Origin: a virus
Strand: one strand, 5' to 3'
Length of the DNA: 24,050 nucleotides
Virus record (IMG/VR): IMGVR_UViG_3300013132_000258
Coordinates: 1 to 24,050 of that record
The notes under the pieces are model-generated. The model worked only from the letters and a program-made list of their open reading frames with translations. It was not told the origin of the DNA and ran no database searches. The translations under genes and the position numbers were made by a program. Shown here piece by piece: positions 2 through 16,594 of this stretch (position 1 is the stretch's first letter; each line of letters starts with the position of its first letter).

Positions 2-1531
2 CCATTTGTTGGTGAATCTGCAATTACAGTGATTTCTGCCGACAATAAAATTCAAACAACTGCTTTATTTTTTGAAAAATCTAAAACTGGAGATAAGGTT
101 CGTTTTACAAAAGATACTGCTGATACTTTTCCAGTTGAAATAGTTGCAAATACTGATTATTACATAGTTAAAGGCATTTCTCCATTTATACAAATAGCTT
201 CTTCTAAAGCAAATGCAATTGCAGCAACTCCTACAATTTTAACACTAAGTGATGATGGGCTTGGTTCAAGTTTTAAAATTGTAAATAATGAAGTTACGAT
301 TTTAGCTTCAATAGATCAAGCATCAGTATTATTTTATGGAGCAAATCCTGGAGATTGGGCAAACTTAATTGAAATAAAAACTACAAATTATTCCACTAAT
401 CAAATTTTAGTAAAAGAACCTGGGTGCTTTTATCTTGAAATATTCTATAAGGGGTATAATACTGGGGAAGCTTATATTTGTTCATTTGATAAAGATAAAA
501 AATCTAAATACGGGTCTTCATTATTTGTTGAAGAAGTGTTAAAGGGATCTAAATATTTAAGAGCTCGCGCAAATGTAAACGTTTCTTCTAGTACACTTAT
601 TAAGGAAAATTCTACAGTAGGTCTTGCATTAGCAAAGGGACTTTCAGACGCTTCAATTTCTGAAGCTGATTTAATTGCAGCTCTTCAACCATTTAGGAAT
701 ACAAAGAAGTACAGTATTCAATTTATTTCTGATTTTGGTATTACTCTTCCTGGATTTCAAAAAGAAATTATTGATATTTGCGAAAAAAGAGGAGATTGCG
801 CATTTATTTTATCTGTGCCTATTGACGTACAAGATGCCAATAATTTTATGGACGAAATTGTTCAATACAAAACTACTGATTTAAATTCTGCTTCTAATTA
901 TGGCGTAATTTATTCTGGACACTGTGAAGTTACTGATTCTCAAATTGGGCGTAAGGTTTGGATTTCTCCATCTGGTCTTATGGCTGCAAAAGCTGTAGCT
1001 GTTTGGGATTCTGGTAAACCGTGGGAAATTATAGCTAATACACGCGCAACATTAAATGTAACTGATGTTCGTAGACATTTTGAAGAGGAAGAAGAATCTA
1101 TTTTAGTCGACAATGGGATTAATCCAATAAGATTTTCTTATGGCGAAGGAATTAAAGCTTGGGGTGAAAGAACTCTTCAAATTGCTCCTACAGCATTTGA
1201 TAGATTCCACGTTCGTCTCTTATTTAACTACATGAAGCCAGCAATGAGAAAAGCTCTTGAGCCTTTCTTATTCGAATTGAATAATATGAATGAAGAAGCT
1301 GATTCAGTAATGTCTACAATTGAAGACGTACTTGGTCAATTTTTAAGTGATATTCAATCGCAAGGTGGAATTTACGGATTTGAAGTACAATGTAATAGAG
1401 AAAATAATACAGAGCAAAATATTGTAAATAGCGAATTAAATGTAGATGTTTATTTGACTCCAGCATACGGAATTGAAAAAATACACTTGAATCTTACAGC
1501 TAATAATAACTTTATAGTGTTTAATAATTAA
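2..1531 (+). CDS. Contractile tail sheath protein (5' end outside window)
   Basis: The reading frame is open from base 2, so the gene begins upstream of the window; the GTG at 29 is internal. About 510 residues are visible. The C-terminal 150 residues look like the conserved sheath C-terminal domain (T4 gp18 type): a GEGIKAWGERTL stretch, then FDRFHVRLLFNYMKPA, then a final strand ending in YLTPAYGIEKIHL. The sheath polymerises around the tail tube and contracts to drive it into the cell. The next gene, 14 bases downstream, is the tail tube, which is the usual sheath-tube order. The N-terminal part looks like a variable surface domain. Family assignment is strong; the full length is unknown. 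Confidence 0.9.
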   Translation, partial: PFVGESAITVISADNKIQTTALFFEKSKTGDKVRFTKDTADTFPVEIVANTDYYIVKGISPFIQIASSKANAIAATPTILTLSDDGLGSSFKIVNNEVTILASIDQASVLFYGANPGDWANLIEIKTTNYSTNQILVKEPGCFYLEIFYKGYNTGEAYICSFDKDKKSKYGSSLFVEEVLKGSKYLRARANVNVSSSTLIKENSTVGLALAKGLSDASISEADLIAALQPFRNTKKYSIQFISDFGITLPGFQKEIIDICEKRGDCAFILSVPIDVQDANNFMDEIVQYKTTDLNSASNYGVIYSGHCEVTDSQIGRKVWISPSGLMAAKAVAVWDSGKPWEIIANTRATLNVTDVRRHFEEEEESILVDNGINPIRFSYGEGIKAWGERTLQIAPTAFDRFHVRLLFNYMKPAMRKALEPFLFELNNMNEEADSVMSTIEDVLGQFLSDIQSQGGIYGFEVQCNRENNTEQNIVNSELNVDVYLTPAYGIEKIHLNLTANNNFIVFNN

Positions 1532-1545
1532 TTTGATATAGATAT

Positions 1546-2058
1546 ATGGCTACAAAGAAACTTACAAAATCAGGGCTTTTACAACTTCCTAATTTACAAA
1601 AGACACATAAATGGACTATTGAGTTTATTCGTAGGCCCGTTATTTCTGGAATTATAGATAATTCTACAATTGCTGGAATTGTTAAATCTGCTGATACTCC
1701 AAAGTATCAAGTAGAAACTGGGGAATTTAATGTACACGGGCTTAAATGGGAAGAGCCAGTAAACGTTTTAACTAATGGGGAATGGCAATTTACCGCGTTT
1801 GAATTGGAAAATGCTATTATAAGAAATCTCTGTACGGCTTGGAATAATGCATTATTGTCTGGTACATTATCTCGTAAAGATGGAACTGGAGATATTAAAT
1901 TAACTTCAACAACTGCAGCTGGAAAAGCAAATCAGATTTATATAATTAAAAATTGGTATCCTACAGATGTTCAAGTTCCTGAATTTGCTTCAGACGCTGC
2001 TTTAATGGAAACAACGATTGCTGGTAAATATATGGATTTAGAAATTCGTAGAGCTTAA
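1546..2058 (+). CDS. Tail tube protein (gp19-like)
   Basis: 170 residues, directly after the sheath gene. Size, position and pattern fit the contractile tail tube family (T4 gp19): an early beta-rich part with TPKYQVETGEFNVHGLKWEE and a C-terminal helix-strand part ending in MDLEIRRA. Tube proteins form stacked hexameric rings that make the channel for DNA. The ATG has the context gatatATG and no Shine-Dalgarno. The assignment rests on synteny plus overall resemblance; no catalytic residues are expected. A second tube-like protein lies at 9421-9948, so this is most likely the major tube subunit. Confidence 0.78.
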   Translation: MATKKLTKSGLLQLPNLQKTHKWTIEFIRRPVISGIIDNSTIAGIVKSADTPKYQVETGEFNVHGLKWEEPVNVLTNGEWQFTAFELENAIIRNLCTAWNNALLSGTLSRKDGTGDIKLTSTTAAGKANQIYIIKNWYPTDVQVPEFASDAALMETTIAGKYMDLEIRRA

Positions 2059-2079: not shown

Positions 2080-2376
2080 ATGCTACTTAAAAGGAAATTT
2101 GCAAATTTAGATAAAAATCAATTAGAGATTTTATCTCTATTTCTTTCTAATATGAAAGATCAAAAACAAAAAGCTATTTTTTTGGCTACTATAAAGTCCA
2201 GTACATCTGTGATTGTCGAAACATACGACTCTAATGTTTGGTACATAATGTGTTTTGGTGCAAAATCACAATTATTTGAAATGTCTTTTAAATATGAAAC
2301 TTTACAAACTGCTGGTGGAATAGAAAAATACACAGCTATGTCTAAACAAGATATTTCTATATTGTTAAAATCATAA
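2080..2376 (+). CDS. Unknown 98-aa protein with ML(I/L)K-type N-terminus
   Basis: I do not recognise this protein. It begins MLLKRKFAN, a variant of the MLIKYKx(S/A) start seen in five other genes here (2391, 2940, 3930, 4623, 12984). The rest is a mixed alpha/beta domain with a hydrophobic strand (SVIVETYDSNVWYIMCFG) and no signal peptide or clear membrane segment. It lies 21 bases after the tube gene and 14 bases before the next gene, inside a closely packed + strand tail cluster, so it is probably expressed late and may be a minor virion protein or assembly factor. The start ATG follows aatggt, with no Shine-Dalgarno. Confidence 0.7.
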   Translation: MLLKRKFANLDKNQLEILSLFLSNMKDQKQKAIFLATIKSSTSVIVETYDSNVWYIMCFGAKSQLFEMSFKYETLQTAGGIEKYTAMSKQDISILLKS

Positions 2377-2390
2377 ATTATTTTTAAAGT

Positions 2391-2930
2391 ATGCTTATTA
2401 AATATAAAACTTCAGACAGTCTTAAAAAATTTAAAATAGATGATTCTATTGAAGATAATTACATTGATTTAATATCTCAAATAAGATCTATTGGGGGTTC
2501 TAAAAGTTCTTCTGTTGCTTTAAAATTAATTACGCTTATTCTTAAGAATGCTCTACCATCTTCAACTAAAAATTCTAAAAATATTTTTATTGTAATTGAT
2601 ACAAAATCTAAAGATGTTTATTTAGAAGACCAAGATAATGACGAATTTCTTACTCTTGATAATAGGGGAAGTCTAGTTGATTACGTCAATGACCAATATT
2701 CTTCAAGCCAAAAAAAATCTTCTGTTGATATAAATGAATTAGCTAAAGACATATATTATATAGAAAATAGTGGAAAAGTGTCTGATTCTAAAATTAACAA
2801 AATGCACAAAATTTTAGGAAACAAAATAAATGGAGATTTAAGCGATGAAGACTACATTTTAGAAGAATTAAAATCTTTAAGTGATAGGGATTTACAACAA
2901 ATCTCATTAGGAATATCTACAATTTATTAA
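2391..2930 (+). CDS. Unknown 179-aa protein with MLIKYK N-terminus
   Basis: Not recognised. It starts MLIKYKTSDS, then has a helical segment rich in Ser and Lys, a short strand-like stretch (NIFIVIDTKSKDVYLED), and an acidic helical C-terminus (LSDEDYILEELKSLSDRDLQQ). There are no cysteines of note and no membrane segment. It sits between two other genes with the same N-terminal motif and is separated from the next by 9 bases. Beyond the first eight residues it shows no obvious similarity to the other MLIKYK proteins, so the motif looks like a shared tag rather than the sign of a recent tandem duplication. Function unknown. Confidence 0.72.
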   Translation: MLIKYKTSDSLKKFKIDDSIEDNYIDLISQIRSIGGSKSSSVALKLITLILKNALPSSTKNSKNIFIVIDTKSKDVYLEDQDNDEFLTLDNRGSLVDYVNDQYSSSQKKSSVDINELAKDIYYIENSGKVSDSKINKMHKILGNKINGDLSDEDYILEELKSLSDRDLQQISLGISTIY

Positions 2931-2939
2931 CATAAGTAT

Positions 2940-3926
2940 ATGCTCATTAAATATAAACTTTCAAATTTAACAAAAGATCAAGCTAAGGAAATAACTAAAA
3001 AAGCCGCATTAGACTTAGTAGCTTATTTAAAATCAGATAGAAACTACTATACGGCCTCTTTATCTTCTACTTTTGGAGATACTGAACAATACAGATGGTG
3101 TGATGCAAAATATTCTTTTTTAGAAGGTGATTGGTATTCTACTATAATTAAAATAAATGGAATATATGGAGACAATAATTTTGAATTGTTATTAAGAAAG
3201 CATGGTCTTAAAAATGATATAAAAATAGAAAATTATACTCAAGGAAAAGGTTCTAAATTAACATTGGCTAATGGAAAAGTATCTCCTATTGGTAGATATA
3301 TTTATGTTGGTTTAAAAAATGTAACTGATTTAAATATAGCTTCTAAGGTTTCTAGTCTAGTTGTATCTAAAGACGAATTAACAAGCGTAGCAACAAAAAC
3401 TTTTGGTTCTGTAGTAGTTTTAAAAAGTAATGTAAAATTTGTAAAACTAAAGGATGACGAGGTTTTTAATTATATAAAAGCTTATAAAATTCCAAAAGAT
3501 GTGCAAAGTATTTATGAATATTTGAATTCTTACATTCCATTTCAATCATTAGAAACTACATTAGCTTGTACAGATAAAACAATAAATGAATACCATAATA
3601 AGTATTCGAAGAATAAAAAAATAGAAATGTATAAAGTTTCTTCTGATAAATTAAGCATTAATTCATATTTATACTTAGATTTATTAAGAACTATTCGTCA
3701 GTATACTCATGGAGCTTCTGGAGCAATAGGTAAATTTAATAAAATGGCTGAGAAATATATTTCACTAATAGAAACTAAATACAATTATGGTCAATTGAGA
3801 ATTGATGATTCAACTATTCAAAATGAAATAGAAATTCTTATAAATAAGAATAATAATCTTCTTAAGAAACATGGATCTTCTGATTCTTTAAATAGATATT
3901 CTCAGATTAAAAATAGATTCTTATAG
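2940..3926 (+). CDS. Unknown 328-aa protein with MLIKYK N-terminus
   Basis: The largest of the MLIKYK genes and not recognised. It starts MLIKYKLSNL, followed by a Lys-rich helix, a beta-rich middle (about residues 40-150, with YRWCDAKYSFLEGDWYSTIIK) and a helical C-terminal half with repeated Tyr and Asn. No catalytic motif or membrane segment was seen. The leucine in the N-terminal motif uses ctc, whereas neighbouring copies use ctt or tta. That argues that the peptide, not the DNA, is conserved. The ATG context is agtatATG. It lies between the tube and the gp53-like wedge gene, so a structural or assembly role is plausible but unproven. Confidence 0.72.
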   Translation: MLIKYKLSNLTKDQAKEITKKAALDLVAYLKSDRNYYTASLSSTFGDTEQYRWCDAKYSFLEGDWYSTIIKINGIYGDNNFELLLRKHGLKNDIKIENYTQGKGSKLTLANGKVSPIGRYIYVGLKNVTDLNIASKVSSLVVSKDELTSVATKTFGSVVVLKSNVKFVKLKDDEVFNYIKAYKIPKDVQSIYEYLNSYIPFQSLETTLACTDKTINEYHNKYSKNKKIEMYKVSSDKLSINSYLYLDLLRTIRQYTHGASGAIGKFNKMAEKYISLIETKYNYGQLRIDDSTIQNEIEILINKNNNLLKKHGSSDSLNRYSQIKNRFL

Positions 3927-3929
3927 TAT

Positions 3930-4202
3930 ATGCTTATAAAATATAAACAAGCTGCAACAACAGAAGACGTTATTGTTAAGCAAGATAAAAAAACTAAAGG
4001 CTTAGTTGGTTTTTTTCCAAATGACGATGTTAGTTCTGATAAATTAATCGCGTCTGCTGATTCTAATGGTTTTACAGAAGCTTCTAAAGACTATATGCAA
4101 AAAGATTGTGAATCAGTAAATTATAGTTCTCCACAAATTAAAGATTTTATTAAATATTTAGAAAGCCAATATAAAATAAAATGTAAATTAATTCTTGAGT
4201 AA
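3930..4202 (+). CDS. Unknown 90-aa protein with MLIKYK N-terminus
   Basis: Not recognised. The N-terminus is MLIKYKQAATTED, again MLIKYKx(A/S). A short Lys/Asp-rich region follows, with GLVGFFPNDDV, and the C-terminal helix YLESQYKIKCKLILE closes the protein. The start is only 3 bases after the previous stop and the stop is 2 bases before the next ATG, so it is tightly coupled to its neighbours. It is too short to place in a family by eye. The isoleucine of the motif is ata here and att in most other copies. Confidence 0.68.
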   Translation: MLIKYKQAATTEDVIVKQDKKTKGLVGFFPNDDVSSDKLIASADSNGFTEASKDYMQKDCESVNYSSPQIKDFIKYLESQYKIKCKLILE

Positions 4203-4204
4203 TT

Positions 4205-4564
4205 ATGGCAGAATCTAATTTTTACATAAATAAAGAGTTTGAATATAAAAACAGATTTGATTTAGAACGCTTTATTGATTTTAATGGAGAGTATTATGAT
4301 ATTTTACAGTCTCCTATTTTAGATCAAATAAAAAAATTTCCAAATATTGGGCAATACCAAATTTCAGAATATCCATACCGTCCTGATGTCGTGGCATATA
4401 ACATATATGGAGATTCTCAATACTGGCCATACATATTATTATATAACGGTATAACAAATATTATGGAATTAGAATTGGGAGTAGTTCTTAAGATTTTTTC
4501 AATTGACGATCTTGAAAAAGTTCTTTACAGTTATTCAAATTTTAACAGGAAAATCATAAAGTAG
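4205..4564 (+). CDS. Baseplate wedge protein (gp53-like)
   Basis: 119 residues. The central part (Y-PYRPDVVAYNIYGDSQYWPYILLYNGI, about residues 57-84) matches the pattern of T4 gp53-type wedge subunits: an aromatic-rich stretch with a YGDxxYWPyIL core, followed by a segment specifying an axis or index (ELGVVLKIFSIDDLEKVL). In T4, gp53 joins wedges together during baseplate assembly. The gene follows the 90-aa MLIKYK gene by 2 bases, and the start context is aattATG. Its stop codon lies in an 8-bp inverted repeat (4556-4580). The assignment comes from motif recognition and its place among tail genes. Confidence 0.72.
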   Translation: MAESNFYINKEFEYKNRFDLERFIDFNGEYYDILQSPILDQIKKFPNIGQYQISEYPYRPDVVAYNIYGDSQYWPYILLYNGITNIMELELGVVLKIFSIDDLEKVLYSYSNFNRKIIK

Positions 4565-4580
4565 TTGTTATTTACTTTAT
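4556..4580 (+). repeat. Inverted repeat at 3' end of gp53-like gene
   Basis: ataaagta (4556-4563) and tactttat (4573-4580) form a perfect 8-bp stem with a 9-base loop. The stem spans the stop codon of the upstream gene. No U-tract follows, so it does not look like a standard intrinsic terminator. It could be an mRNA 3' boundary or chance in A+T-rich DNA. Confidence 0.35.
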
Positions 4581-4622
4581 CAGTCTGTGTAATATAAATG
4601 GACATTAATTTAAATAAATTGT

Positions 4623-5204
4623 ATGCTTATTAAAACTAAAAAAGCTTCTAAATATTCATATATAACAAATGACGATTTTTCTAAAATTGCATTTACTGGA
4701 GCTGAAAAAATAAATCCAAATAATAAACAAGTATATTCTTTTCTTGAAAAGGCTACTCAATCTAAAGTAAAAAATGCATACAATCTTTGCGATCAATATG
4801 GAGAGACTTTAGGAATTTTATTTTGTAGAGTAATAAATACAAATGAATTTGGCGGAATAAGCATTTCGTATCTTCCTTTAGGCGAAGATGGATTTTACGA
4901 TGTATCTAGTATTTTTTCAGTTTATAATGCTGTTTTTAAATATAAAGATTTGTGTCAAGATACAAATGAAGGCGATTTTTGGCATTACGAAGAAGAAAAT
5001 TTACCAAACAATATAAATCAAGCACTAGAGTTAGAAGAATTCGTTTCTAATGATAAAACAAAGTATCATATAGTTAAATCTATAAAGGGATCACAGGCTG
5101 CACCTAAATTAATTGTAAGGCTTTCAAATCTCATAAAAAGCATTTATTCTGAAGATCTTAAAATTACAAAAGCATTTAACGCCATTACTTTTTCAGATTT
5201 GTAA
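4623..5204 (+). CDS. Unknown 193-aa protein with MLIKTK N-terminus
   Basis: Not recognised. It begins MLIKTKKASKYS, a close variant of the MLIKYKx(S/A) start, with Thr in place of Tyr. The body is mixed alpha/beta with a strand pair around GETLGILFCRVINT and a C-terminal basic helix. It follows the gp53-like gene after 58 bases and precedes the hub gene by 1 base. That tight coupling suggests co-translation with the hub protein. The ATG context is ttgtATG. No enzymatic motif was seen. Confidence 0.7.
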   Translation: MLIKTKKASKYSYITNDDFSKIAFTGAEKINPNNKQVYSFLEKATQSKVKNAYNLCDQYGETLGILFCRVINTNEFGGISISYLPLGEDGFYDVSSIFSVYNAVFKYKDLCQDTNEGDFWHYEEENLPNNINQALELEEFVSNDKTKYHIVKSIKGSQAAPKLIVRLSNLIKSIYSEDLKITKAFNAITFSDL

Positions 5205-5205
5205 T

Positions 5206-6321
5206 ATGATTGGAATTGATGGTCAATGGATTTTTGATTTGGCTGATGAGAATCAAAAATCTTTAATTAAAGTTAAGGATTTACAATCATTTGTTGCAAT
5301 AGAAGAATGTGGATTATTACTTCCAGTTTTTAAAATTTCATTTATTCTTAATGATATAAAAAGTCTTTCATATATGAATGAAGGGGCAATTTTAAAAGTT
5401 GCTTTAGGTAAAAATATAAAAGATCTTAAATACATAAATCTTCAAATACTTCAAGTTAGTGAGTCCACCAATGACGCTAAAATAATATATCTTACCGCTA
5501 CTTTATATAAACCGACGTATTCTAAAACTTCTAAGTGTAAAGTTTATTCAAATAAAACTTCTGTAGAGTTATTAAAACAAATAATTTCACAATATTTTGA
5601 AATTATTTCTAATACTTCTATTTCTACTGATAGAAAAGATTGGACTCAATTTGGAATTTCTGATAAAAACTTTGTTGAATATTTATGGTTCAATTCTCAT
5701 ATAGACAATGGATTTTTATCATTAGGTTGTTCTGCAATTGAAAATAAATTTATAATTAAAGATATTGTAAAATCATTTACTTCCGCTTCGTATGACTATA
5801 AAATGGGATACACAAAAACAGAAGATAAAGATCTTTTAATATCAGCAATTTCTGGATCTGCTGGAAATTATGGATTCTATAATACATGGGCAGCTAATGA
5901 CACTACTATATTAAATTTTAATCCATCAACAAATAGTTTTTTTACAAAAGAATGTAAAATGAACACTTTGCTTTCTACTACTGATAAAAATTCAAAAAAT
6001 ACTAAAATAGAAAAAAATATCAATAAAATAAGTTTACATGCAAATAATAATTATGCACAAGCCAAAGTTTATAATATGTTTGCTTTGTCAAATTATTCTA
6101 AATATTCTTTAGAAGTTACAACTATTGGTGAATTTAATCCAATAAAATTGCTTGATAAAATCTATCTTGACCTTAATAAAGAAACAAAAGGAAATGAAGA
6201 ATATTTTTCTGGGAATTACTTAGTTACAAGAGTTGTTAGAATTATTCAAGACAACGCTGTAGCAACAAAAATTACTATTAGTCGCGAATCTCCTGGAAAT
6301 ATTAAAGGCGCTGATCTTTAA
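5206..6321 (+). CDS. Baseplate hub protein (gp27 / gpD-like)
   Basis: 371 residues with the look of the central hub family (T4 gp27, Mu gp44, P2 gpD): an N-terminal beta domain with early FKISFILND, a long central region, and a C-terminal strand pair FSGNYLVTRVVRII...ATKITISRESPGN that matches the usual hub ending. Hub proteins trimerise at the centre of the baseplate, carry the spike (here probably 18856-20907) and connect to the tube. The start overlaps the upstream context by one base (gtaatATG). In this genome the hub gene is separated from the spike gene by about 12.5 kb of other genes, which suggests inserted modules. The assignment is by pattern, not alignment. Confidence 0.68.
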   Translation: MIGIDGQWIFDLADENQKSLIKVKDLQSFVAIEECGLLLPVFKISFILNDIKSLSYMNEGAILKVALGKNIKDLKYINLQILQVSESTNDAKIIYLTATLYKPTYSKTSKCKVYSNKTSVELLKQIISQYFEIISNTSISTDRKDWTQFGISDKNFVEYLWFNSHIDNGFLSLGCSAIENKFIIKDIVKSFTSASYDYKMGYTKTEDKDLLISAISGSAGNYGFYNTWAANDTTILNFNPSTNSFFTKECKMNTLLSTTDKNSKNTKIEKNINKISLHANNNYAQAKVYNMFALSNYSKYSLEVTTIGEFNPIKLLDKIYLDLNKETKGNEEYFSGNYLVTRVVRIIQDNAVATKITISRESPGNIKGADL

Positions 6322-6440
6322 TATTTTTTAAAATACTCATTATTTTTTATAATTTGCAATTATATACTAAATGAATAAAAATAATAAGTATAGCTAGCGC
6401 TTAAAATGAGCTAATTTATGTATGCATATATTTTTATTCA
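6322..6440 (+). other. Non-coding A+T-rich spacer
   Basis: No open frame of note. It contains ttaaaatact at 6328-6337, just after the hub stop, a sequence that recurs after other genes (8872, 14057, 14891). A tataat hexamer lies at 6348-6353, and there is a short inverted repeat tagct...agcta near 6393-6415. It could hold a promoter for the tRNA/endonuclease module; nothing is decisive. Confidence 0.3.
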
Positions 6441-6566
6441 GTTTCTCTTTTCTATAAAAGAGCAGTGAAAAATAGTAAAGAAAATTGAAGCCCGCCTTCT
6501 ATTTTATGGTCTTTAAGATCTCGTTTTCTTTACAAATTAGGACTATTTGATAGAGAATAGTTTTTT
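6441..6566 (+). ncRNA. Candidate structured RNA ending in a terminator-like hairpin
   Basis: Several perfect inverted repeats are packed into about 125 bases with no coding frame: ctctttt/aaaagag (stem near 6445-6462), gtaaagaaaa (6475-6484) with ttttctttac (6524-6533), and gtgaaaaa (6465-6472) with tttttcac (6562-6569) enclosing it. Inside, gaag/cttc forms a small hairpin around the relatively G+C-rich cccgc. At the end, actatt (6542-6547) and aatagt (6556-6561) form a stem followed by a run of T, like a weak intrinsic terminator and mutually exclusive with the outer stem. It could be a small RNA, a leader to the tRNA, or a processing signal. I do not recognise a known family. Confidence 0.4.
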
Positions 6567-6574
6567 CACATTTT

Positions 6575-6650
6575 GGGGATGTGGTGATAATGGTTAGCAC
6601 TCCGGTTTTGCATACCGGCAGTCTGGGTTCGACTCCCAGCGTTTCAACCA
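6575..6650 (+). tRNA. tRNA-Ala (anticodon TGC), CCA encoded
   Basis: A cloverleaf can be drawn: D-stem gtg/cac around ataatggttag (6584-6600), anticodon stem ccggt/accgg with loop tttgcat (6602-6618), anticodon TGC at 6609-6611, T-stem ctggg/cccag with loop ttcgact (6623-6639), and 3' end acgtt-type strand cgtttca, A, then CCA (6648-6650). The acceptor 5' strand ggggatg pairs weakly with cgtttca, including G3-U70, the alanine identity pair, which supports Ala. The first pair would be G-A, a mismatch. The weak acceptor stem lowers confidence that the tRNA is fully functional. It is probably carried to support the phage's own codon needs. Confidence 0.8.
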
Positions 6651-6654
6651 AAGT

Positions 6655-6677
6655 GCCCTTATAGCTCAGCGGCTAGA
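6655..6677 (+). pseudogene. 5' fragment of a second tRNA
   Basis: The bases gcccttatagctcagcggc followed by taga look like the acceptor 5' strand, positions 8-9, the D-stem gctc and most of a D-loop of a typical tRNA. They start 4 bases after the CCA of tRNA-Ala. The expected D-stem 3' half (gagc) and everything beyond are missing; unrelated A+T-rich sequence and then an endonuclease gene follow. I found no matching 3' half (an acceptor strand complementary to gcccttA plus CCA) elsewhere in the window. It is read as a tRNA truncated by insertion or deletion. Confidence 0.6.
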
Positions 6678-6717
6678 TTAAGTTAATAGGCACGATTTTT
6701 ACTTAATTTTTAATAAT

Positions 6718-6749
6718 CATATCTTAATAGAATTTAAAATTAAGATATG
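6718..6749 (+). promoter_or_regulatory. Hairpin burying the endonuclease start codon
   Basis: catatcttaat (6718-6728) and attaagatatg (6739-6749) form a perfect 11-bp stem with a 10-base loop. The last three bases of the stem are the ATG of the endonuclease gene. Such a hairpin would block initiation on any transcript that reads through from upstream. Phage T4 homing endonuclease genes use comparable hairpins to limit translation (established for I-TevI). The function here is inferred. Confidence 0.6.
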
Positions 6750-7610
6750 TATAATTGTCAAAAATGTCAAAAAGAAGTAGTAGAAAAATATGGCTCAGGA
6801 AAATTTTGTTCAAAATCATGCTCTAATTCTAGGATAGTTTCATTCAAAACTAAAGAGAAACTTTCAAATTCATTGAAAGGTAGAAAAGGACTACCACATC
6901 CTTTAAAAGGAAAACAGGGAAAAATTCATTCTGTTGAAAGTCGTTTAAAAATTTCAAATTCATTGAAAGGTAGAAAAAGTCCTTTAAAAGGAAAATCACA
7001 TTCTTTAGAAACTAGATTAAAAATTTCAGAAAATCAAAAAGGGCGAGTTTTGTCTCAAGAAACTAGAACTAAAATAAGTCAATCATTAAAAGGAAAAGAA
7101 AGTCCTTTAAAAGGAAAATTAGGAAAAATACATTCATCAGAAACTAAAGAGAAACTTTCAACCTCCTTAAAAGGTAGAAAAAGTCCTTTAAAAGGAAAAT
7201 CTATTACAGAAGAACATAAATTAAAAATTTCAAAAGCAAATAAAGGAAAACCAGGAAAATACAATCCAAAAAGTTCAAGAGGAAAATCTGGGTGGTATAA
7301 AGGATATTGGTCTGATTCTTCTTATGAATTAGCATACATCATATACAACTTAGAACATAATATTCCCTTTGAACGTAATACAAAATCATTTGAATATATA
7401 AATTCAAAAGGAGAAAAACGTAAGTATTATCCAGACTTTATTTTACCGTGTGGAAAATACATTGAAATTAAAAATTTCATTTCTGAAGACGTCTTATTAA
7501 AAGCAACTTCTATTAGTAGCATAGAAATTTTATGCAAAAATGAAATGCAACCTTATTTAAAATACTGTAAAGAAAAATATGGAAAAGATTTTATTTCATT
7601 ATATGAATAA
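6747..7610 (+). CDS. Homing-type endonuclease: zinc finger, NUMOD3 repeats, PD-(D/E)XK nuclease
   Basis: 287 residues. The N-terminus has a zinc-finger-like C4-x2-C7-x13-C21-x3-C25. Residues about 33-165 hold six NUMOD3-type repeats (for example KEKLSNSLKGRK, RLKISNSLKGRK), DNA-binding modules found in homing endonucleases. The C-terminal domain has E194 (SSYELAY), then KYYPDF with D230 and YIEIK with E240 and K242. This is a PD-(D/E)XK arrangement, not GIY-YIG or HNH. It lies just after a truncated tRNA and has a hairpin over its start codon. It probably cuts a tRNA-region allele lacking the insertion. The nearly identical repeat units (agtcctttaaaaggaaaa at 6978, 7101 and 7182) suggest recent repeat expansion. 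Confidence 0.8.
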   Translation: MYNCQKCQKEVVEKYGSGKFCSKSCSNSRIVSFKTKEKLSNSLKGRKGLPHPLKGKQGKIHSVESRLKISNSLKGRKSPLKGKSHSLETRLKISENQKGRVLSQETRTKISQSLKGKESPLKGKLGKIHSSETKEKLSTSLKGRKSPLKGKSITEEHKLKISKANKGKPGKYNPKSSRGKSGWYKGYWSDSSYELAYIIYNLEHNIPFERNTKSFEYINSKGEKRKYYPDFILPCGKYIEIKNFISEDVLLKATSISSIEILCKNEMQPYLKYCKEKYGKDFISLYE

Positions 7611-7643
7611 ATATACCGTATAAAATAACATATAGAATTTAGT

Positions 7644-8858
7644 ATGACACTTCTTGAAGAATTGAAAATTAGAGGATTTATTAAGGATATTGCTAATGAA
7701 CATATACTAAAAAAGTATCTTCAAGAAAATAAAAAATTAACAGTTTATGCTGGATTTGATTTAACCGCTCCATCTTTACATATAGGTCATTTAATGACTA
7801 TAATGATGTTAAGAATTTTTGAAAAATACGGCCATAATATAATAGTTCTTTTAGGAGGTGGCACTACAAAAATTGGAGATCCTTCTGGAAAAGATAAAAC
7901 TAGACAAATATTATCATACAAACAAATTAAGCAAAATCAAAAAGGAATAGAATCTAATCTTACTGGATTTATTAATTTTAAAAAGAATATTAAAATTTTG
8001 AATAATGATAAGTGGATTTCTAAAATTAATTATGTAGAGTTTTTAAGAGACATTGGAAAGCATTTTACTATAAATAGAATGAACACTATGGATTCAGTAA
8101 AAATGCGTCTCCAAAGAGAACAGCCGTTGAGTTTTACTGAATTTAATTACATGCTTATTCAAAGTTATGATTTTCTTCATTTGTATAAAAAACATAAATG
8201 TAATATGCAAATTGGTGGGTCTGATCAGTGGGGTAATATTACAGAGGGCATTGAGTTAATTAATCGCGTTAATTTAGAAGAAGGAAAAGAAAAGGATACA
8301 ATATTTGGAATAACTTGTCCATTAATAGAAACATCTGATGGTAAAAAAATGGGTAAAAGTGAAAATGGAGCAATTTGGTTATCTAATAAATTACTTTCAG
8401 ACTTTGATTATTTTCAATATTTTAGAAATGTTTCAGATGATGACACCATAAAGTTTTTATATTTGTTTACTGATATTTCAATTAAAAAACTAAATGATTT
8501 AATAGAAAGGAACACAAATATCAATCAATTAAAAAAAATTCTTGCCTTTGAAACTACTAAATTATGTAGAGGAGAAAAAATTGCATTTGAATGTTTAGAA
8601 AAAGGTATTTCTTTATTTGAGAAAAGAGAAAATAATATGATTGATGAGATTGTAGTAACTTCTGCATATTCTAATATAATTGAATTTTTAACGTATACTT
8701 GTGATTTTATTAAGTCTAAATCAATAGCAAAAACGTATATATCACAAGGAGCTATTAAAATAAATACACAGCCAATTTCTACATTTAATATAACTCTAAA
8801 AACTGGAGATATAGTTCAAATAGGAAAAAAGACATTCAAAAAGGTTATAATAAAATAA
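7644..8858 (+). CDS. tyrS: Tyrosyl-tRNA synthetase
   Basis: 404 residues, close to the full bacterial length. Class I signatures are intact: HIGH at 46-49 (APSLHIGHL), GGGTTKIGDPSGKD at 71-84, GGSDQWGNI at 191-199 with the tyrosine/ATP-binding Asp and Gln, and the KMSKS variant KMGKS at 235-239. A C-terminal S4-type RNA-binding domain covers about 340-404 (SKSIAKTYISQGAIKIN). It charges tRNA-Tyr with tyrosine in the cytoplasm. No tRNA-Tyr is visible nearby, so it would act on host tRNA or on one encoded elsewhere. The GGGTTKIGDPSGKD form resembles alphaproteobacterial enzymes, hinting at the gene's source. It looks functional. Confidence 0.95.
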   Translation: MTLLEELKIRGFIKDIANEHILKKYLQENKKLTVYAGFDLTAPSLHIGHLMTIMMLRIFEKYGHNIIVLLGGGTTKIGDPSGKDKTRQILSYKQIKQNQKGIESNLTGFINFKKNIKILNNDKWISKINYVEFLRDIGKHFTINRMNTMDSVKMRLQREQPLSFTEFNYMLIQSYDFLHLYKKHKCNMQIGGSDQWGNITEGIELINRVNLEEGKEKDTIFGITCPLIETSDGKKMGKSENGAIWLSNKLLSDFDYFQYFRNVSDDDTIKFLYLFTDISIKKLNDLIERNTNINQLKKILAFETTKLCRGEKIAFECLEKGISLFEKRENNMIDEIVVTSAYSNIIEFLTYTCDFIKSKSIAKTYISQGAIKINTQPISTFNITLKTGDIVQIGKKTFKKVIIK

Positions 8859-8861
8859 AAA

Positions 8862-8914
8862 TTAAAAAAACTTAAAATACTTATGTACATTTAAAAATGT
8901 TATATGTATAAATA
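8862..8914 (+). repeat. 53-bp exact direct repeat, copy 1 (putative promoter/leader)
   Basis: Identical base for base to 14881-14933. It begins 4 bases after the tyrS stop, contains ttaaaatact (8872-8881), an inverted repeat acattt-aa-aaatgt (8887-8900) and ends in tataaata (8907-8914), the sequence of T4-type late promoter -10 elements. In both copies a hairpin follows, and a small gene starts exactly 53 bases after the repeat. The promoter role is inferred from the position and the TATAAATA end. Confidence 0.7.
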
Positions 8915-8922
8915 ATCATGGA

Positions 8923-8940
8923 AGATTCAATGTTGAATCT
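8923..8940 (+). promoter_or_regulatory. Leader hairpin after repeat copy 1
   Basis: agattcaa and ttgaatct form a perfect 8-bp inverted repeat around tg. If tataaata is the -10 element, the transcript would begin around 8920 and this hairpin would lie at its 5' end, where it could protect the mRNA. A hairpin with a different sequence but related core (ttca...tgaat) follows copy 2. Confidence 0.5.
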
Positions 8941-8966
8941 CCTTAATGTTAATTATTGTAAATTCT

Positions 8967-9371
8967 ATGTCTCATGGATTAGTTTTAGTGATTTCTGAAA
9001 ATCCTATTGAATTATTGAATAACTATTTAAAGTTTTCTCAATCTACTCACAGTGGAATGGATTATTTTAAAAAAGACGTAATAGAAAAAATACCTCTTTT
9101 AGAAAGAAAAAAAGAAATTGATGAGGACGGGTATGAAGAAGATATTATTCAATATACTGGAAAAACTGAAATTTCTAAAGTCGACCTTGACGAAATTTAT
9201 TTTAGACCTATATGTTGTGCTATATTGTCTGATCATGGATTTATTTCTTGTGATATGTTTCAACATCTAGACTGTGAAGAATGGTCTATTTTTTGGAATA
9301 ATTATGTTGAAAAAATTTTAAGTTCTCTTGACAAGGATCAGATCATTTCACTTTATGACTATCATTGTTAA
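8967..9371 (+). CDS. Unknown 134-aa acidic protein, leader-paralogue of 14986 gene
   Basis: Not recognised. The frame also offers an ATG at 8946, but 8967 is preferred: it lies 53 bases after the repeat, exactly as 14986 does after copy 2, and its N-terminus MSHGLVLVISENPIELLNNY resembles MSNILLLVLKNPSIIKKAYK of that gene. The remainder is acidic, with a central EDGYEEDIIQY region, a Cys-rich stretch (FRPICCAILSDHGFISCDMF) and a C-terminal helix. There is no signal peptide. It stands alone between tyrS and a tube-like gene, with its own putative promoter, so it may be expressed at a different time from the tail genes. Confidence 0.7.
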   Translation: MSHGLVLVISENPIELLNNYLKFSQSTHSGMDYFKKDVIEKIPLLERKKEIDEDGYEEDIIQYTGKTEISKVDLDEIYFRPICCAILSDHGFISCDMFQHLDCEEWSIFWNNYVEKILSSLDKDQIISLYDYHC

Positions 9372-9381
9372 TATATTTTTA

Positions 9382-9406
9382 AATGTTCTCTATTAAAGAG
9401 AATATT
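9382..9406 (+). terminator. Intergenic hairpin
   Basis: aatgttctct (9382-9391) pairs with agagaatatt (9397-9406) over 10 bp with one G-T pair, loop attaa. It lies 11 bases after the stop of the upstream gene and 15 bases before the next ATG. No clear T-run follows, so it may be a weak terminator, a processing site or a leader hairpin. Confidence 0.4.
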
Positions 9407-9420
9407 AATATTAACATAAA

Positions 9421-9948
9421 ATGGCAACGTCAAGTTCATCTATAAAATCTGTTAAGCCATATTTAAAAGCTAAGGAACAATTGTTGGCTATTGAATGGGC
9501 AAAAACTAATAAATGGGATATACGGCTTTTAGATAAGGATGCTCCAGAACCATTTAAAAAATTCTTTCCAGCTCAAAGTGTAACTGAACCTGTGTTTAGC
9601 ATGTCAGAACACACTTTTAATATTGGAATGGCTGGACTAAACGTAATAGATGGATATGCCGCTCCTTCATTATCTATAACATTTTATGATACAGATAAAT
9701 GCGTTTTAGAAAAATATTTTGAAAATTGGTGTAATTCTAAAATACTTGGAAATTATACTTATGTACTTCCAATTGAATCTTCATTAAAAACTATTGAAGT
9801 ATACAGGTATGATAATAGAGGCAAAAAAGTTTGGAGTACATTATATAACATATGTCCTAAAGGCTCTGTAACTAGAGAAAGTAATTCTTCTGGGGAATTT
9901 ATTCTATTTACTGTAGAATTTATTATAGCTTCAATGACTCGTAAATAA
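9421..9948 (+). CDS. Tube-like / baseplate tail protein
   Basis: 175 residues. The pattern is that of small beta-barrel tail proteins related to tube subunits: an N-terminal helix with WAKTNKWDIRLLD, a central barrel (SMSEHTFNIGMAGLNVIDGYAAPSLSI), and a terminal strand FILFTVEFIIASMTRK. It may be a tube initiator or adaptor (T4 gp54/gp48 type) or a second tube paralogue; the sequence alone does not decide. It precedes the chaperone gene by 12 bases and the tape-measure-like gene follows that, consistent with tube assembly functions. The ATG context is cataaaATG, one of the few without a T before the start. Confidence 0.55.
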   Translation: MATSSSSIKSVKPYLKAKEQLLAIEWAKTNKWDIRLLDKDAPEPFKKFFPAQSVTEPVFSMSEHTFNIGMAGLNVIDGYAAPSLSITFYDTDKCVLEKYFENWCNSKILGNYTYVLPIESSLKTIEVYRYDNRGKKVWSTLYNICPKGSVTRESNSSGEFILFTVEFIIASMTRK

Positions 9949-9960
9949 TTTATTTAATAT

Positions 9961-10749
9961 ATGCAAAACGAAAGAATATTTAGAGAAGAATCAGATGTTG
10001 TTAAAAAGAATAACCCATACATAGAGGGTGGAGTTTTATCTGGGTCTGATCTTCCATCTAGTGGTTTATTTTATCCTGCTAATTTTGAAATATCATATAG
10101 ATTATTTTCATTTGGGGAATTAAAATTCTTATCTCCAAAAGTATTAGACGAAAAAAATGTTCGTACAGTTAAAGAATACATAGATATGTGTCTTAAGGGA
10201 ATTCATTTTAGTCATGATTTTAATCCTTATGATTTGTGTTGGTATGATTTTATTTATATTTCAATTCTTCGTAAATTTCCATCATTAGCAAAAAATTTAG
10301 ATGATCCTTATGACATCGCAACTAAATGCCCTCATTGCGCTGCTTCAAATATTTCTGCATTAGATTTAGATTCGTTAGAATTTAATTCATTAGAGACAGT
10401 GGAAAAATTATCTGTGGAGTATAATGGGGAAATATTAAAGTTTAAGCCCATGACAATAGGAAAATATTTTGATCTTATAGAATTGTCTAATTCCATTTCA
10501 AATGTAGATATGGATATAGCTTATCTAGCTGGAAGCCTAATTTCTGATTTATCAATAAAAGACGCATACACAAAATTGTATGAGATTCAAGATCGTAAAG
10601 TAATTGAAGCCTTATTCAAATTAGATCCAATATTAAATTTAGGTTTAATGCCACATGTAATCCAATGTCAAAAATGCCAAGAAGAGTATTCAATATCATT
10701 GCAATCAAGCAATGTTGAATATTCCTTGGCATTTCCCAGGCTCATCTAG
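9961..10749 (+). CDS. Baseplate hub / tail assembly chaperone (gp26-like), CxxC zinc ribbon
   Basis: 262 residues. Two CxxC pairs, C123-x2-C126 (TKCPHC) and C236-x2-C239 (CQKC), could form a zinc ribbon. The region YIDMCLKG...LCWYDFIYISILRKFPSL is typical of T4 gp26-like hub assembly proteins, which help the hub and tape measure come together but may not stay in the virion. It lies immediately upstream of the tape-measure-like gene, the standard location of a tail assembly chaperone. Its 3' end overlaps a 59-codon frame at 10712-10891, with a possible +1 slip site TTT C at 10732-10735. The family call is moderate. Confidence 0.65.
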   Translation: MQNERIFREESDVVKKNNPYIEGGVLSGSDLPSSGLFYPANFEISYRLFSFGELKFLSPKVLDEKNVRTVKEYIDMCLKGIHFSHDFNPYDLCWYDFIYISILRKFPSLAKNLDDPYDIATKCPHCAASNISALDLDSLEFNSLETVEKLSVEYNGEILKFKPMTIGKYFDLIELSNSISNVDMDIAYLAGSLISDLSIKDAYTKLYEIQDRKVIEALFKLDPILNLGLMPHVIQCQKCQEEYSISLQSSNVEYSLAFPRLI

Positions 10750-10891
10750 TTTAGGCCAAATTTCTTCAATGTATAAAAAATTAATGGAAATTTCTAAAAG
10801 AGTTGTTAAGGATTTTAATATTTCTATTTTAGACATTAACTATATAAGTCTTAATGAAATATTATCATTACTTAAAAATGAAAAAGAATAA
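10712..10891 (+). CDS. Small ORF overlapping chaperone 3' end; likely frameshift extension
   Basis: 59 codons in the +1 frame relative to the chaperone gene, overlapping it by 38 bases and filling the gap before the tape-measure-like gene. Its first residues run MLNIPWHFPGSSSLGQISSM and the rest is helical (MYKKLMEISKRVVKDF, ISLNEILSLLKNEKE). The upstream gene could enter this frame by slipping TTT to TTC at 10732-10735, followed by CCA instead of CCC and the codon AGG. This is the arrangement of tail chaperone pairs such as lambda G/GT or Mu 41/42. Alternatively it is a separate small gene (gp51-like by position). No expression evidence is available. Confidence 0.55.
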   Translation: MLNIPWHFPGSSSLGQISSMYKKLMEISKRVVKDFNISILDINYISLNEILSLLKNEKE

Positions 10892-10906
10892 ATTTAATAT
10901 ACTCTT

Positions 10907-12943
10907 ATGATAGATGCACTAATACCATTGATTGCTGGAAAAATAGGAGAAAAGGTTAATGAAAAAGTACGCTCTAAAATAAGTGATCTTGACATTAAAG
11001 ATAAAGCAAAGAGTTTTTTTCAAAAAAAATATCAAGAATCTAATTTGTACAGAAAGCAACAAGAAAATAAGGATAAACAATTCATAAAGAAAAAAGATGA
11101 TTATGAAAAACAGCTTCAAAAAGAATTAGAAAATCTTAAAAATTTAAAAGATAAAGGAGCCAATCAATCTAAGCTTATTGCTCAATTAGAAAAGTTATCT
11201 GAACTTGAAGATAAGATTTCTGAAATAGAGGATTTTAAAATTGAAAAAGAACGAAAGGTAAAAGAAGTTCAAGAAAAAACAGAACAGAAATTATTGACAA
11301 TAGAACTTCAAAAACAACAGGCTTTATTAGATAAACTGCAAAAAGGAAGGAAATCAAAAAATAAACAAACAAAAATTGATGCTCAAACTAAAAAAATAGA
11401 AGAAATTCAAAATAAAATTAATGGCGTTAATAATCAAAATCAAGATGATACCAATTTTAGCTTTGAAGAATCTCCAAAACTAAAATCTAAATCATCTAAA
11501 ACTCCTAAAACTGAAGAATCTATTTTAGGCGACATAGAAACTGGAATGGAGAATGTTAGCGTTTTAGAAGATTCGAATATTGGATTTGGGTCATCTTTAA
11601 CAAACACTGATTCTGAAGAAGACTCTATTTTACCAAATGAAACTGAAATCAAAGGCGTAAAATTGACTAATTTATTGTTACTTAACAATAAAAAACAATT
11701 GGAAGAGCTAGAAGACGTAAACAAAAATTTAGATAAACTTACTGATAAAGTTGAAAATATGGAAGGCGGAGGAGGATTGTTAGATCTTCTTAAGAAACCT
11801 AAAAATATTGCAAAAACTGCATTAAAATACGCACCAAAAATGGCTAAAGTAGGTGGAGCAGTATTAGCTGGAGCTTTTGAAGTAGGGGGAGCAGCTATTG
11901 ATTATAATACTACACAAAAAGAATTAAAAACAAAACTTGAGAATGGGGAAATAACTCAAGAAGAATATGATCAACTTTCTAAAAAGAATAAGTATAAAAA
12001 TGGTGGAAGAGCTGGAGGAGCACTAGCTGGTGCAGCTGCAGGGGCCGCAATTGGTTCATTCGTTCCTATTATAGGAACAGCTATTGGGGCTGGAGTTGGT
12101 GCATTAGCTGGTGGATATTTAGGAAAATCTGGTGGTGAAGAAATGGCTGATTATCTCAAAACTACAGCTTATTTAGAGTCTGGATTTAATCCAAATGCTA
12201 AAGCTGGGACATCATCTGCTTCTGGTCTTTATCAATTTACTCAAGGAACTTGGGACGACATGAATAAAAAGCATGGATTAAATTATTCTCAAGAAGATAG
12301 ATTTGATCCGCAAAAATCTGCTCAAATGGCTGCTTTATTTGCTGCTGAAAATAAACAGAAAATTGAAAAAGGAACAGGACAAAAAGCTACTGGCACTGAC
12401 ATGTATATGGGGCATTTTTTAGGGGCTGGAGGAGCTGTAGATTTTTTAAATGCAAAGAATAAAAGAGGTGATGATATTGTAGCGAATGATCCTAAATTTA
12501 AAGCAGCCGCAGCTGCGAATAAATCTATTTTCTATAATAAAGACGGAACTCCTCGTTCTTATAAAGAAATTTATCAAGTTATGGATAATAAGTACAAAAA
12601 AGGTGAACAAAAAGCTGATGCTCTTTTAGAAAAATACGGTAATGGAATTCCTGAAGTTCCTGGAAAAAAAGAAGAATTAATGCAAACTCCAATTGTTGCT
12701 CCTCAAGAAATTAAAGAACCTGCAAAAATGACTAAAATAGATTCAGCTGTTTTTGACTACGACAAGAAAAAAGAAACTGAGGCTAAAACTGCTCAAGCCG
12801 AATCTTCTAAAATGATTTCTTCAGCTGTAGCACAGAGTATACCTAGTCCTCAAATGTCTATTCCGCAAAGTTCTAAAAATTCTTCATTACCTATGGTTGA
12901 CGATAGTATTTCTAGCGCTATTAGATGGGTAATAAATAATTAG
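10907..12943 (+). CDS. Tape-measure-like protein with lytic transglycosylase (SLT) domain
   Basis: 678 residues. Residues about 15-190 are a Lys/Glu/Gln-rich coiled coil. A Gly/Ala-rich hydrophobic region (about 305-405, with AGGALAGAAAGAAIGSFVP) could cross the inner membrane. Then comes an SLT lysozyme-like domain at about 415-560: TAYLESGFNPNAKAG with the catalytic Glu at 424, SASGLYQFTQGTWDDM and MYMGHFLGAGGA. The C-terminus is low complexity with Pro and Ser. This combination, directly after the chaperone gene, fits a tape-measure protein that cuts peptidoglycan as DNA enters. It might also be a separate tail lysin if another tape measure lies outside the window. The SLT call is strong, the tape-measure call moderate. 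Confidence 0.78.
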   Translation: MIDALIPLIAGKIGEKVNEKVRSKISDLDIKDKAKSFFQKKYQESNLYRKQQENKDKQFIKKKDDYEKQLQKELENLKNLKDKGANQSKLIAQLEKLSELEDKISEIEDFKIEKERKVKEVQEKTEQKLLTIELQKQQALLDKLQKGRKSKNKQTKIDAQTKKIEEIQNKINGVNNQNQDDTNFSFEESPKLKSKSSKTPKTEESILGDIETGMENVSVLEDSNIGFGSSLTNTDSEEDSILPNETEIKGVKLTNLLLLNNKKQLEELEDVNKNLDKLTDKVENMEGGGGLLDLLKKPKNIAKTALKYAPKMAKVGGAVLAGAFEVGGAAIDYNTTQKELKTKLENGEITQEEYDQLSKKNKYKNGGRAGGALAGAAAGAAIGSFVPIIGTAIGAGVGALAGGYLGKSGGEEMADYLKTTAYLESGFNPNAKAGTSSASGLYQFTQGTWDDMNKKHGLNYSQEDRFDPQKSAQMAALFAAENKQKIEKGTGQKATGTDMYMGHFLGAGGAVDFLNAKNKRGDDIVANDPKFKAAAAANKSIFYNKDGTPRSYKEIYQVMDNKYKKGEQKADALLEKYGNGIPEVPGKKEELMQTPIVAPQEIKEPAKMTKIDSAVFDYDKKKETEAKTAQAESSKMISSAVAQSIPSPQMSIPQSSKNSSLPMVDDSISSAIRWVINN

Positions 12944-12983
12944 ATTTTAGAAATGTATTATAAAATTGATATTTACCGAAAAT

Positions 12984-13406
12984 ATGTTAATAAAATATAA
13001 AAAATCTTTTAATATTCAAAACATTAAAGATATGGCAAAGTCTATAATTTCAGAAAAAATATTGCCATCTTTAAGAGATGGATTTTTAGCTTTTCCAGAG
13101 AAATACTTTAATGGCGAATATTTCTCTATTTATGTTTATAATCCTAAAGAATCAAATAGCCGAAAATTGGTTTTCATAAAAGTTTCAAATGAAAAAAAGT
13201 GCATGGATTTAATAAAAAATTATGTTGCTTTAAATAAAGAGTATTCTTCTGCAAATGAAGAAGATTTAGAATATTATCAAGATCAATTAGAGTCTATCTT
13301 TGATTCTATAGAAAAACTAACTGATTTTATTGGATCACTAAATTCTGATAGTATTAAGTTTTTATCAAAAAACCATATTGAACCAATTGAATCTTATTAT
13401 AAATAA
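12984..13406 (+). CDS. Unknown 140-aa protein with MLIKYK N-terminus
   Basis: The start is set at ATG 12984 (context gaaaatATG), not the TTG upstream, because it gives MLIKYKKSFN, the shared N-terminal motif of five genes at 2080-4623. Here Leu is tta and Ile is ata, so the peptide is the same although the codons differ. The rest is alpha/beta with a strand region YFSIYVYNPKESNSRKLVFIK and an acidic helical C-terminus (ANEEDLEYYQDQLESIFDSIEKL). Not recognised. It sits between the tape-measure-like gene and a tube-cap-like gene, 2 bases before the latter, so the motif genes follow the tail structural genes across 9 kb. Confidence 0.72.
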   Translation: MLIKYKKSFNIQNIKDMAKSIISEKILPSLRDGFLAFPEKYFNGEYFSIYVYNPKESNSRKLVFIKVSNEKKCMDLIKNYVALNKEYSSANEEDLEYYQDQLESIFDSIEKLTDFIGSLNSDSIKFLSKNHIEPIESYYK

Positions 13407-13408
13407 AT

Positions 13409-14038
13409 ATGGCTTCGTATAATTTTATTGACATTGCAAAAAAGAATCCAGATAATATAGTGGTTCTTGATTATGGTTCTGGAAATTTAACTTTGTTACT
13501 TGCTGATGAAGTTTCATTTAATACTGGAAATCAATGGGAAGCTCCACTAGAGGGAGGAATTATGAATTCATTAGGTGGAGTTACTACGGCGATAAGAGCT
13601 GGACAACAACTCTTAGGTGGTGCTCAAACAGATATTAAAAATTTTCGTGAAACAATTTTATACTACAATAATTCTAAATCATTAGATATTAGCTTAAACT
13701 GTTTATTAATAGCTTCAAGGGAAGACGAAGACTTAAATTTAAATTTAAAACCTTTATTTGATTTAACAAATCCAGATTTTGACGCTTCAGCAAGTTTTGA
13801 TATAACTATGAAAGCGCCTTTAAATTATTCTCCTGATCCTAAAGATCCTGGTGGAAAAATTGCTATTAAAATAGGAAGATTTTTTGCCAGCACTAGAGTC
13901 TATGTTCTTGAATCTTGTACTCCAACTATAAGCAAAGCCAAATTGCCAAACGGTAAGCCTATGTATATGAGTCTACAAGTTTCTTTAAAGCCTTTTAGAA
14001 TTTTATCCAATACTGAAGTAAAAAGTTTCTTAATCTAA
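13409..14038 (+). CDS. Probable baseplate / tube-cap protein (gp48/54-like)
   Basis: 209 residues. The layout resembles tail tube cap or tube initiator proteins: an N-terminal beta part (IVVLDYGSGNLTLLLADEVSFN), a Gly-rich linker with GGIMNSLGGVTTAIRAGQQLLGG, a barrel-forming region with DASASFDITMKAPLNYSP, and the C-terminal SLQVSLKPFRILSN strand. In T4, gp48 and gp54 sit between the hub and the first tube ring. The context (after tape measure, among baseplate genes) fits. No decisive motif was seen; a baseplate hub subunit is the main alternative. Confidence 0.5.
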   Translation: MASYNFIDIAKKNPDNIVVLDYGSGNLTLLLADEVSFNTGNQWEAPLEGGIMNSLGGVTTAIRAGQQLLGGAQTDIKNFRETILYYNNSKSLDISLNCLLIASREDEDLNLNLKPLFDLTNPDFDASASFDITMKAPLNYSPDPKDPGGKIAIKIGRFFASTRVYVLESCTPTISKAKLPNGKPMYMSLQVSLKPFRILSNTEVKSFLI

Positions 14039-14084: not shown

Positions 14085-14894
14085 ATGGCAATAGATAAAA
14101 TAATAATTCCAACTTTAGGAAGATTAGAAAATCAAATCACATACTCAAATATTCCAGATAAATGGAAATCTAAAGTAACATTTGTTCTTCAGGAAAAAGA
14201 ATCTAATCATGAGTGGTTTAAAGATAAAAATGTAATGGTAGTTCCAAATGATATTGGTATTGCTAAGACTAGATATTTAATCGCCGATAAACATAGAGGT
14301 ATAAAATATGCTGTATTTGATGATGACTTAGTATTTCATTATAGACCAGATATTACTCTTCATAATAAACCAGAAATGACGCCAGAGATATTCGATGAAG
14401 CTTTTGATTTAATGGATAAAAATTTAGATCAAGAAGACGTTGTAGCTTCTGGATTTGCAGCTACATGGTCAATGTATCCAGAAGGCGAAGAGTTAGAATG
14501 CGCAAGACCATGTGGAAACGTCTTTTATAATGGATCTAAATTGCCAGTTGACGAATTAGACTGGCTTTCATTTCAAGTCAGTGAAGATTATTGGTTAATG
14601 ATGCAGCTTTTATCTAAGGGATACAAGAACAAAGTGTCATTAAAGTATTTTATAAATTGTGGAGCAACTCAAACTGCTGGAGGTTGCGCTGCTTTTAGAA
14701 CAGTGGAATTACATAACCAGTGTTTTCAAAAACTTAAGAATAAATTTCCTAGGTATGTAAAGCTTCATAAAAAAGTTATAAATTCCGGAGGTTTTGCTGG
14801 CATTGTTCAATTAAAAGCAATAATTTCATTTAGAAAATTGTATGATGAGAGTAAGGTTAAATTAGCTTCACAAAATTTTTTTAAAAAAACTTAA
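14085..14894 (+). CDS. Glycosyltransferase-like protein, possibly TAGT type
   Basis: 269 residues with a GT-A-like fold pattern: IIIPTLGRLENQ at 6-16, then a VTFVLQEKE strand, VVPNDIGIAKTRYLI at 52-66 and FDDD at 78-81, a DxD-type metal and sugar-nucleotide binding motif. A later acidic segment, SEDYWLMMQLLSKGY, fits the usual second half of such enzymes. The combination of PT-GR-xNQ, IGIAKTR and a DDD-containing strand resembles the TET-associated glycosyltransferases of phages that put sugars on modified DNA bases. Glycosylation of another target is possible. The gene ends inside copy 2 of the 53-bp repeat and starts after a related motif, so it may be a mobile cassette. Confidence 0.65.
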   Translation: MAIDKIIIPTLGRLENQITYSNIPDKWKSKVTFVLQEKESNHEWFKDKNVMVVPNDIGIAKTRYLIADKHRGIKYAVFDDDLVFHYRPDITLHNKPEMTPEIFDEAFDLMDKNLDQEDVVASGFAATWSMYPEGEELECARPCGNVFYNGSKLPVDELDWLSFQVSEDYWLMMQLLSKGYKNKVSLKYFINCGATQTAGGCAAFRTVELHNQCFQKLKNKFPRYVKLHKKVINSGGFAGIVQLKAIISFRKLYDESKVKLASQNFFKKT

Positions 14895-16589: not shown

Positions 16590-16594
16590 AAATT

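Follow-up and report, generated by a model that had tools for sequence, protein, structure and literature searches.

A short N-terminal peptide shared by six dissimilar phage proteins is a candidate virion-targeting tag

The internal proteins of T-even phages are a diverse set in which only the capsid targeting sequence (CTS) is conserved (PMC3012670), and 10 residues of the T4 internal protein IPIII are enough to target a protein to the head (PMC9026906). The CTSs of T4 are removed (PMC9026906). In phage P1, an N-terminal signal loads DarB into the head, for which 30 residues are enough, and since a BLAST comparison found no consensus among the Dar N-termini, the signal there is not a shared tag (PMC9024508). 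In SPN3US and related giant phages, the inner head proteins have N-terminal propeptides that are thought to steer them to the prohead (PMC5694885); unlike the peptide described below, these propeptides mostly exceed 100 residues and are cut off by the prohead protease.

Here we describe a peptide of the form M-L-(I/L)-K-x-K-x-(S/A) at the start of six genes in a fragment from the IMG/VR virus collection, a record of 24,050 bases with a GC content of 27.6% and 30 called genes (hereafter the window). As with the T4 CTS, carried by IPI, IPII, IPIII and Alt, a few residues at the very start are what these otherwise dissimilar proteins have in common, and our proposed role for it, an N-terminal packaging signal, would match that of the P1 DarB signal. 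A first-pass annotation had noticed the six starts, and the ORF list places them exactly where it did. Starts in that list are mechanical calls, and for gene F the call is a TTG at 12966, whereas the ATG at 12984 is the fitting start; the annotation had this start right, although its end position of 13007 cuts the gene, which in truth runs to 13406. The six genes are:

2080..2376, + strand: gene A, 98 aa, starting MLLKRKFA, the most divergent tag
2391..2930, + strand: gene B, 179 aa, starting MLIKYKTS
2940..3926, + strand: gene C, 328 aa, starting MLIKYKLS
3930..4202, + strand: gene D, 90 aa, starting MLIKYKQA
4623..5204, + strand: gene E, 193 aa, starting MLIKTKKA
12984..13406, + strand: gene F, 140 aa, starting MLIKYKKS, with an SLT tail protein on one side and a PmgG-like protein on the other

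The pattern ML[IL]K.K.[SA] opens these 6 of the 30 called genes and is absent from the remaining 24, compared to an expectation of 0.0008 matches when residues are shuffled within each protein. Clustering of N-termini with no motif supplied gave a cluster of six, against three at most in 2000 residue shuffles, and a cluster of this size was reached in none of 200 column permutations, which preserve N-terminal composition. Chance or composition as the source of the peptide, a concern that the first-pass annotation had itself raised, is ruled out by these shuffles and permutations. We also scanned viral contigs for the exact peptide using three degenerate DNA patterns that included position 8 (CTN, TTR and CTT-ATT) and one that did not, which together cover some of the codon spellings, in collection scans that may omit records very near the window. 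Within this scope, no contig among the matches listed held several copies of the exact peptide; the matches were scattered singles, mostly off gene starts.

The leucine at position 2 is encoded by CTA, CTT, CTC, CTT, CTT and TTA in the six genes and isoleucine by ATT or ATA, and because the codons differ, it is the peptide itself that is conserved, as originally argued. Yet five of the six Leu2 codons are CTN, compared to 30% for leucine across the window (p = 0.01), which hints slightly at a common DNA ancestry for some of the 5' ends. Carried further, the same excess could mean that the likeness resides in the mRNA or DNA, with gene starts sharing either a recombination seed or an element for starting translation, and genes B and C do differ at just 1 of their first 18 bases. 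However, several base differences, both synonymous and amino-acid-changing, set genes A, E and F apart, the 40 bases upstream hold no obvious common element, and other genes of the window, tail genes included, lack the likeness; we consider such an origin extremely unlikely. A late-promoter or start-region element was also considered and rejected, as the tagged genes are not alone in having TATAAATA.

Beyond the peptide, the six proteins look different, as first reported: all-against-all searches found no reliable similarity among their bodies. None of genes A-F has a usable match in Pfam, PHROG or PADLOC. By tblastn against 50,697 phage records, genes B and E have no match and genes C and F match solely near E = 1 (genes A and D were outside that search). 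Gene C has no relative among viral contigs, neither C nor E has a PDB match, and AlphaFold2 run without an alignment gave unusable models of both (mean pLDDT of 37 for gene C and 36 for gene E). The six could nonetheless be ancient paralogues, their bodies now too diverged to be recognized as related while the N-terminus persists as a working part, for instance an edge strand or an arm for oligomerisation. This would fit the adjacency of four of the tagged genes, the slight CTN excess at Leu2, a weak and borderline similarity between the C-terminal half of gene D and gene F (E 0.005 in the set of six), and a match of 23% over 124 aa between genes E and F. It sits poorly with lengths running from 90 to 328 aa, with the all-against-all result, and with the tagged bodies of related phages (described below), which are mostly unrelated to one another bar a single paralogous pair, and we regard it as quite unlikely.

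The window holds a contractile-tail module, recognized by PHROG, Pfam and tblastn, and all six tagged genes lie in this tail region. Head genes were not recognized within the 24 kb. Gp5-like, gp25-like and gp6-like proteins also belong to the module, together with:

29..1531, + strand: tail sheath (PHROG 23, 3e-51; best phage match to Rhizobium RHph phages, 32%; best contig match 39%)
1546..2058, + strand: tail tube (PHROG 45, 1e-4)
4205..4564, + strand: gp53-like baseplate wedge (PHROG 15542/7145/232; alignment)
5206..6321, + strand: hub-like protein, homologue of RHph_Y65 gp299 (tblastn to L122 and others, E down to 3e-34)
9421..9948, + strand: second tail-tube-like protein (PHROG 1842; 31% to Rhizobium phages)
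10907..12943, + strand: tail protein with an SLT transglycosylase domain (Pfam SLT 9e-10; PHROG 3201)
13409..14038, + strand: PmgG-like protein (PHROG 1114, 1.6e-6)

By their sheath (32%), Rhizobium phages such as RHph_Y65 are the nearest named relatives of the window. RHph_Y65 and its relatives (Kleczkowskaviridae) share homologous sheath, second tube, PmgG-like, gp53-like and hub proteins with it, but arrange them in a compact order without tagged genes, and no repeated tag was found in the 33 kb examined. Tail genes are likewise closely spaced in Ab1-TPeters and in the contig relatives, whereas those of the window are separated by genes A-F and several more.

Several of the other genes in the window are of separate interest. 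Two homing-endonuclease-like genes lie in the tail region, one at 6747-7610 with matches to homing-endonuclease PHROGs and one at 15741-16589 with a GIY-YIG look by sequence, and such genes may have helped to split the tail module. The same region carries a TET-associated glycosyltransferase-like gene (14085-14894), which suggests modified phage DNA, and an ATP-dependent DNA ligase (16562-17923). An OmpA/Pal-like lipoprotein gene (20962-21456) is flanked by the gp5-like and gp25-like baseplate genes. The C-terminal end of an Nfu-type iron-sulphur scaffold gene (18221-18826) runs on in a different frame, which is a broken gene or a sequencing error. The window also encodes a tRNA-Ala (TGC; 6575-6650) and a tyrosyl-tRNA synthetase (7644-8858), whose closest matches in genome contigs, at 50% and 48%, are alphaproteobacterial MAGs (one labelled Rickettsia typhi); these matches hint at an alphaproteobacterial host.

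The setting of the tagged genes lends itself to a reading in which the peptide docks on the tail or baseplate by binding the hub, tube or wedge, in which case the six would be accessory components of the tail or baseplate and not cargo of the head. They lie among tail genes, at sites where relatives have none, and the gp5-like hub proteins of several relatives begin M[LF][IL][KN], similar to the tag (L186:2526, L190:6631, L162:15502, L166:11591 with a TTG start, and L122:20712). However, the window's own gp5-like protein starts MNINLSLRYSMHIPLDKA and lacks such a beginning, the conserved tail proteins of the window do not carry the tag, and the tagged genes of relatives favor the head module. 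We judge docking unlikely, while keeping a tail or baseplate destination in view because the tagged genes sit among tail genes. Mimicry of the N-terminus of a gp5-like hub was rejected, since MLIK-like letters occur there in relatives only and are absent from the hub protein of the window.

Relatives were found in viral contigs with an alignment of the second tube protein and with a sheath motif pattern; the sheath as a single query in viral contigs and the sheath motif pattern in genome contigs gave no matches. Longer pieces of seven relative records were taken for unbiased N-terminal clustering, a procedure that recovers the six tagged proteins of the window. Three of the relatives, possibly fragments too, each carry a repeated peptide of their own: M.LI.EL..LLE on 10 genes of G001 (88.8 kb; L183-L187), MSKAKELLE on 8 genes of G003 (95.7 kb; L188-L192) and MRAKNLLQLLNE on 4 genes of G005 (34.8 kb; L199-L200). 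A permutation control that took just the first ATG per ORF left clusters of 9 in G001 and 8 in G003, sizes that no permutation attained; in G005 the cluster was one of 3, attained in 1 of 200 permutations at a looser threshold and in none at a stricter one. The tagged bodies in these phages are mostly unrelated, the one paralogous pair being in G005, and the search for homologues of the six window bodies among these relatives found none. Most of the tagged genes are found in the stretch from terminase or portal to sheath, where they alternate with genes for protease, major capsid and neck proteins, and a protease gene is present in all three phages. The window tag is unlike the tags of these relatives, which resemble short helices with an (L/I)xE motif.

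Applied to 50-100 kb of T4, the same clustering returned IPI, IPII and IPIII with 57B as a false member, a cluster that was reached in 1 of 200 permutations. With the permutation control, no repeated tag was found in G004, G007 or the Pelagibacter phage HTVC008M, in which such peptides had been expected beforehand; none was found in partial sequences of RHph_Y65, Ab1-TPeters, GR7B and phiLo, and G008 gave no cluster clearly above chance. In G009, three genes (L201:988, 2712 and 4484) start M[AS][FI][IV]PG[AN][TS]G, as in MSFIPGNSG, which is perhaps another shared N-terminal peptide or a sign of simple paralogues.

In the relatives, homologous bodies were found under different tags. One body family occurs in three phages (G001 L185:1800, G003 L189:9908 and G005 L200:13147), with E-values of 3e-14 between the first two and of 2e-4 and 3e-5 from these to the third, and has no body homologue in named phages. 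A second family occurs in two phages (L185:12771 and L191:9473, E 3e-17). Compared with each other, these homologues have N-termini that score 0, 8, -3 and 2, but the average of the same N-termini against the remaining tagged proteins of the phage concerned is 18 to 21. High scores within a phage are expected, as the tagged sets were picked by their N-termini, and the independent part of this evidence is the low scores between homologues. Homologous bodies thus wear the tag of their own phage, indicating that a tag belongs to the phage and not to the protein family; the evidence for such swapping comes from the relatives and does not extend to the phage of the window.

The (L/I)xE motif is the gp21 site of T4. 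It occurs within residues 4-18 of 21 of the 22 tags in relatives, compared to a background of 13-18%, and T4 IPII and IPIII likewise carry it. In G001 the motif falls mostly at residue 6, inside the repeated peptide, and so may not mark a cut there. In the first 18 residues of the six tagged window proteins it is absent throughout (0 of 6). This bears on the suggestion, made at first pass, that the peptide is a leader removed by a phage protease cutting beside the small residue 8. Position 8 is indeed Ser or Ala in all six proteins, the relatives' tags carry a plausible prohead-protease motif, and removal is what befalls the CTSs of T4 (PMC9026906). However, with the motif missing and residue 7 being F, T, L, Q, K and K, which leaves no conserved P1 for a cut before residue 8, the leader is unsupported and in our view very unlikely, although another protease could be involved. 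An uncleaved tag is conceivable for the window, given that Asp at position 10 of IPIII stops processing, not targeting (PMC9026906).

Together these results bear on how far the window peptide resembles the T4 system. Direct comparison with IPI, IPII and IPIII shows a different sequence (MKTYQEFIAEA in T4, MLIKYKxS in the window), and the window tag further differs in lacking (L/I)xE in the first 18 residues, in sitting on genes placed among tail genes and in having a packaging role that is putative. On the evidence available, the peptide appears CTS-like in its working and is not classed as a T4-type CTS, as both the sequence and the processing site depart from that type. The initial statement that no signal of this form had been described holds for the sequence, which matches nothing that we found described; the kind of signal, by contrast, is that of the T4 internal-protein CTS (PMC3012670, PMC9026906). 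Among the roles first suggested for the peptide, a packaging or assembly tag is backed by the relatives and by the T4 comparison, with the cleaved-leader variant left unsupported.

In our view the chances are about even that M-L-(I/L)-K-x-K-x-(S/A) serves as an N-terminal tag private to this phage, targeting proteins to the virion in the manner of the T4 CTS, with the head as the likelier destination. A scaffold or another assembling component of the virion would recognize the peptide, and this recognition would load accessory proteins, whose set can change, into the particle and probably into the prohead, for delivery or for use at an early stage of infection. Lacking the usual site for the prohead protease, the tag itself would probably stay on or else be cut off by some other cleavage. 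A bolder generalization, in which every phage of this group has a private address code at the N-terminus, accessory families switch code on moving from one phage to another, and the window code is uncleaved, of a new type and possibly directed to the tail and not the head, strikes us as rather improbable.

If the window peptide is such a virion-targeting tag, a repeated N-terminal peptide would make it possible to tell, by sequence alone, which uncharacterized proteins go into the particle of a phage, among them the first actors in a new host cell. A single genome is enough for the clustering method, which recovers the known internal proteins of T4 and here succeeded with four uncultured phages. 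Each tag would further offer a means of loading proteins of choice into the particles of that phage. Finally, the exchange of tags between relatives suggests that cargo genes travel between phages and receive the local address on arrival, and such re-addressing would explain how sets of internal proteins change so fast.
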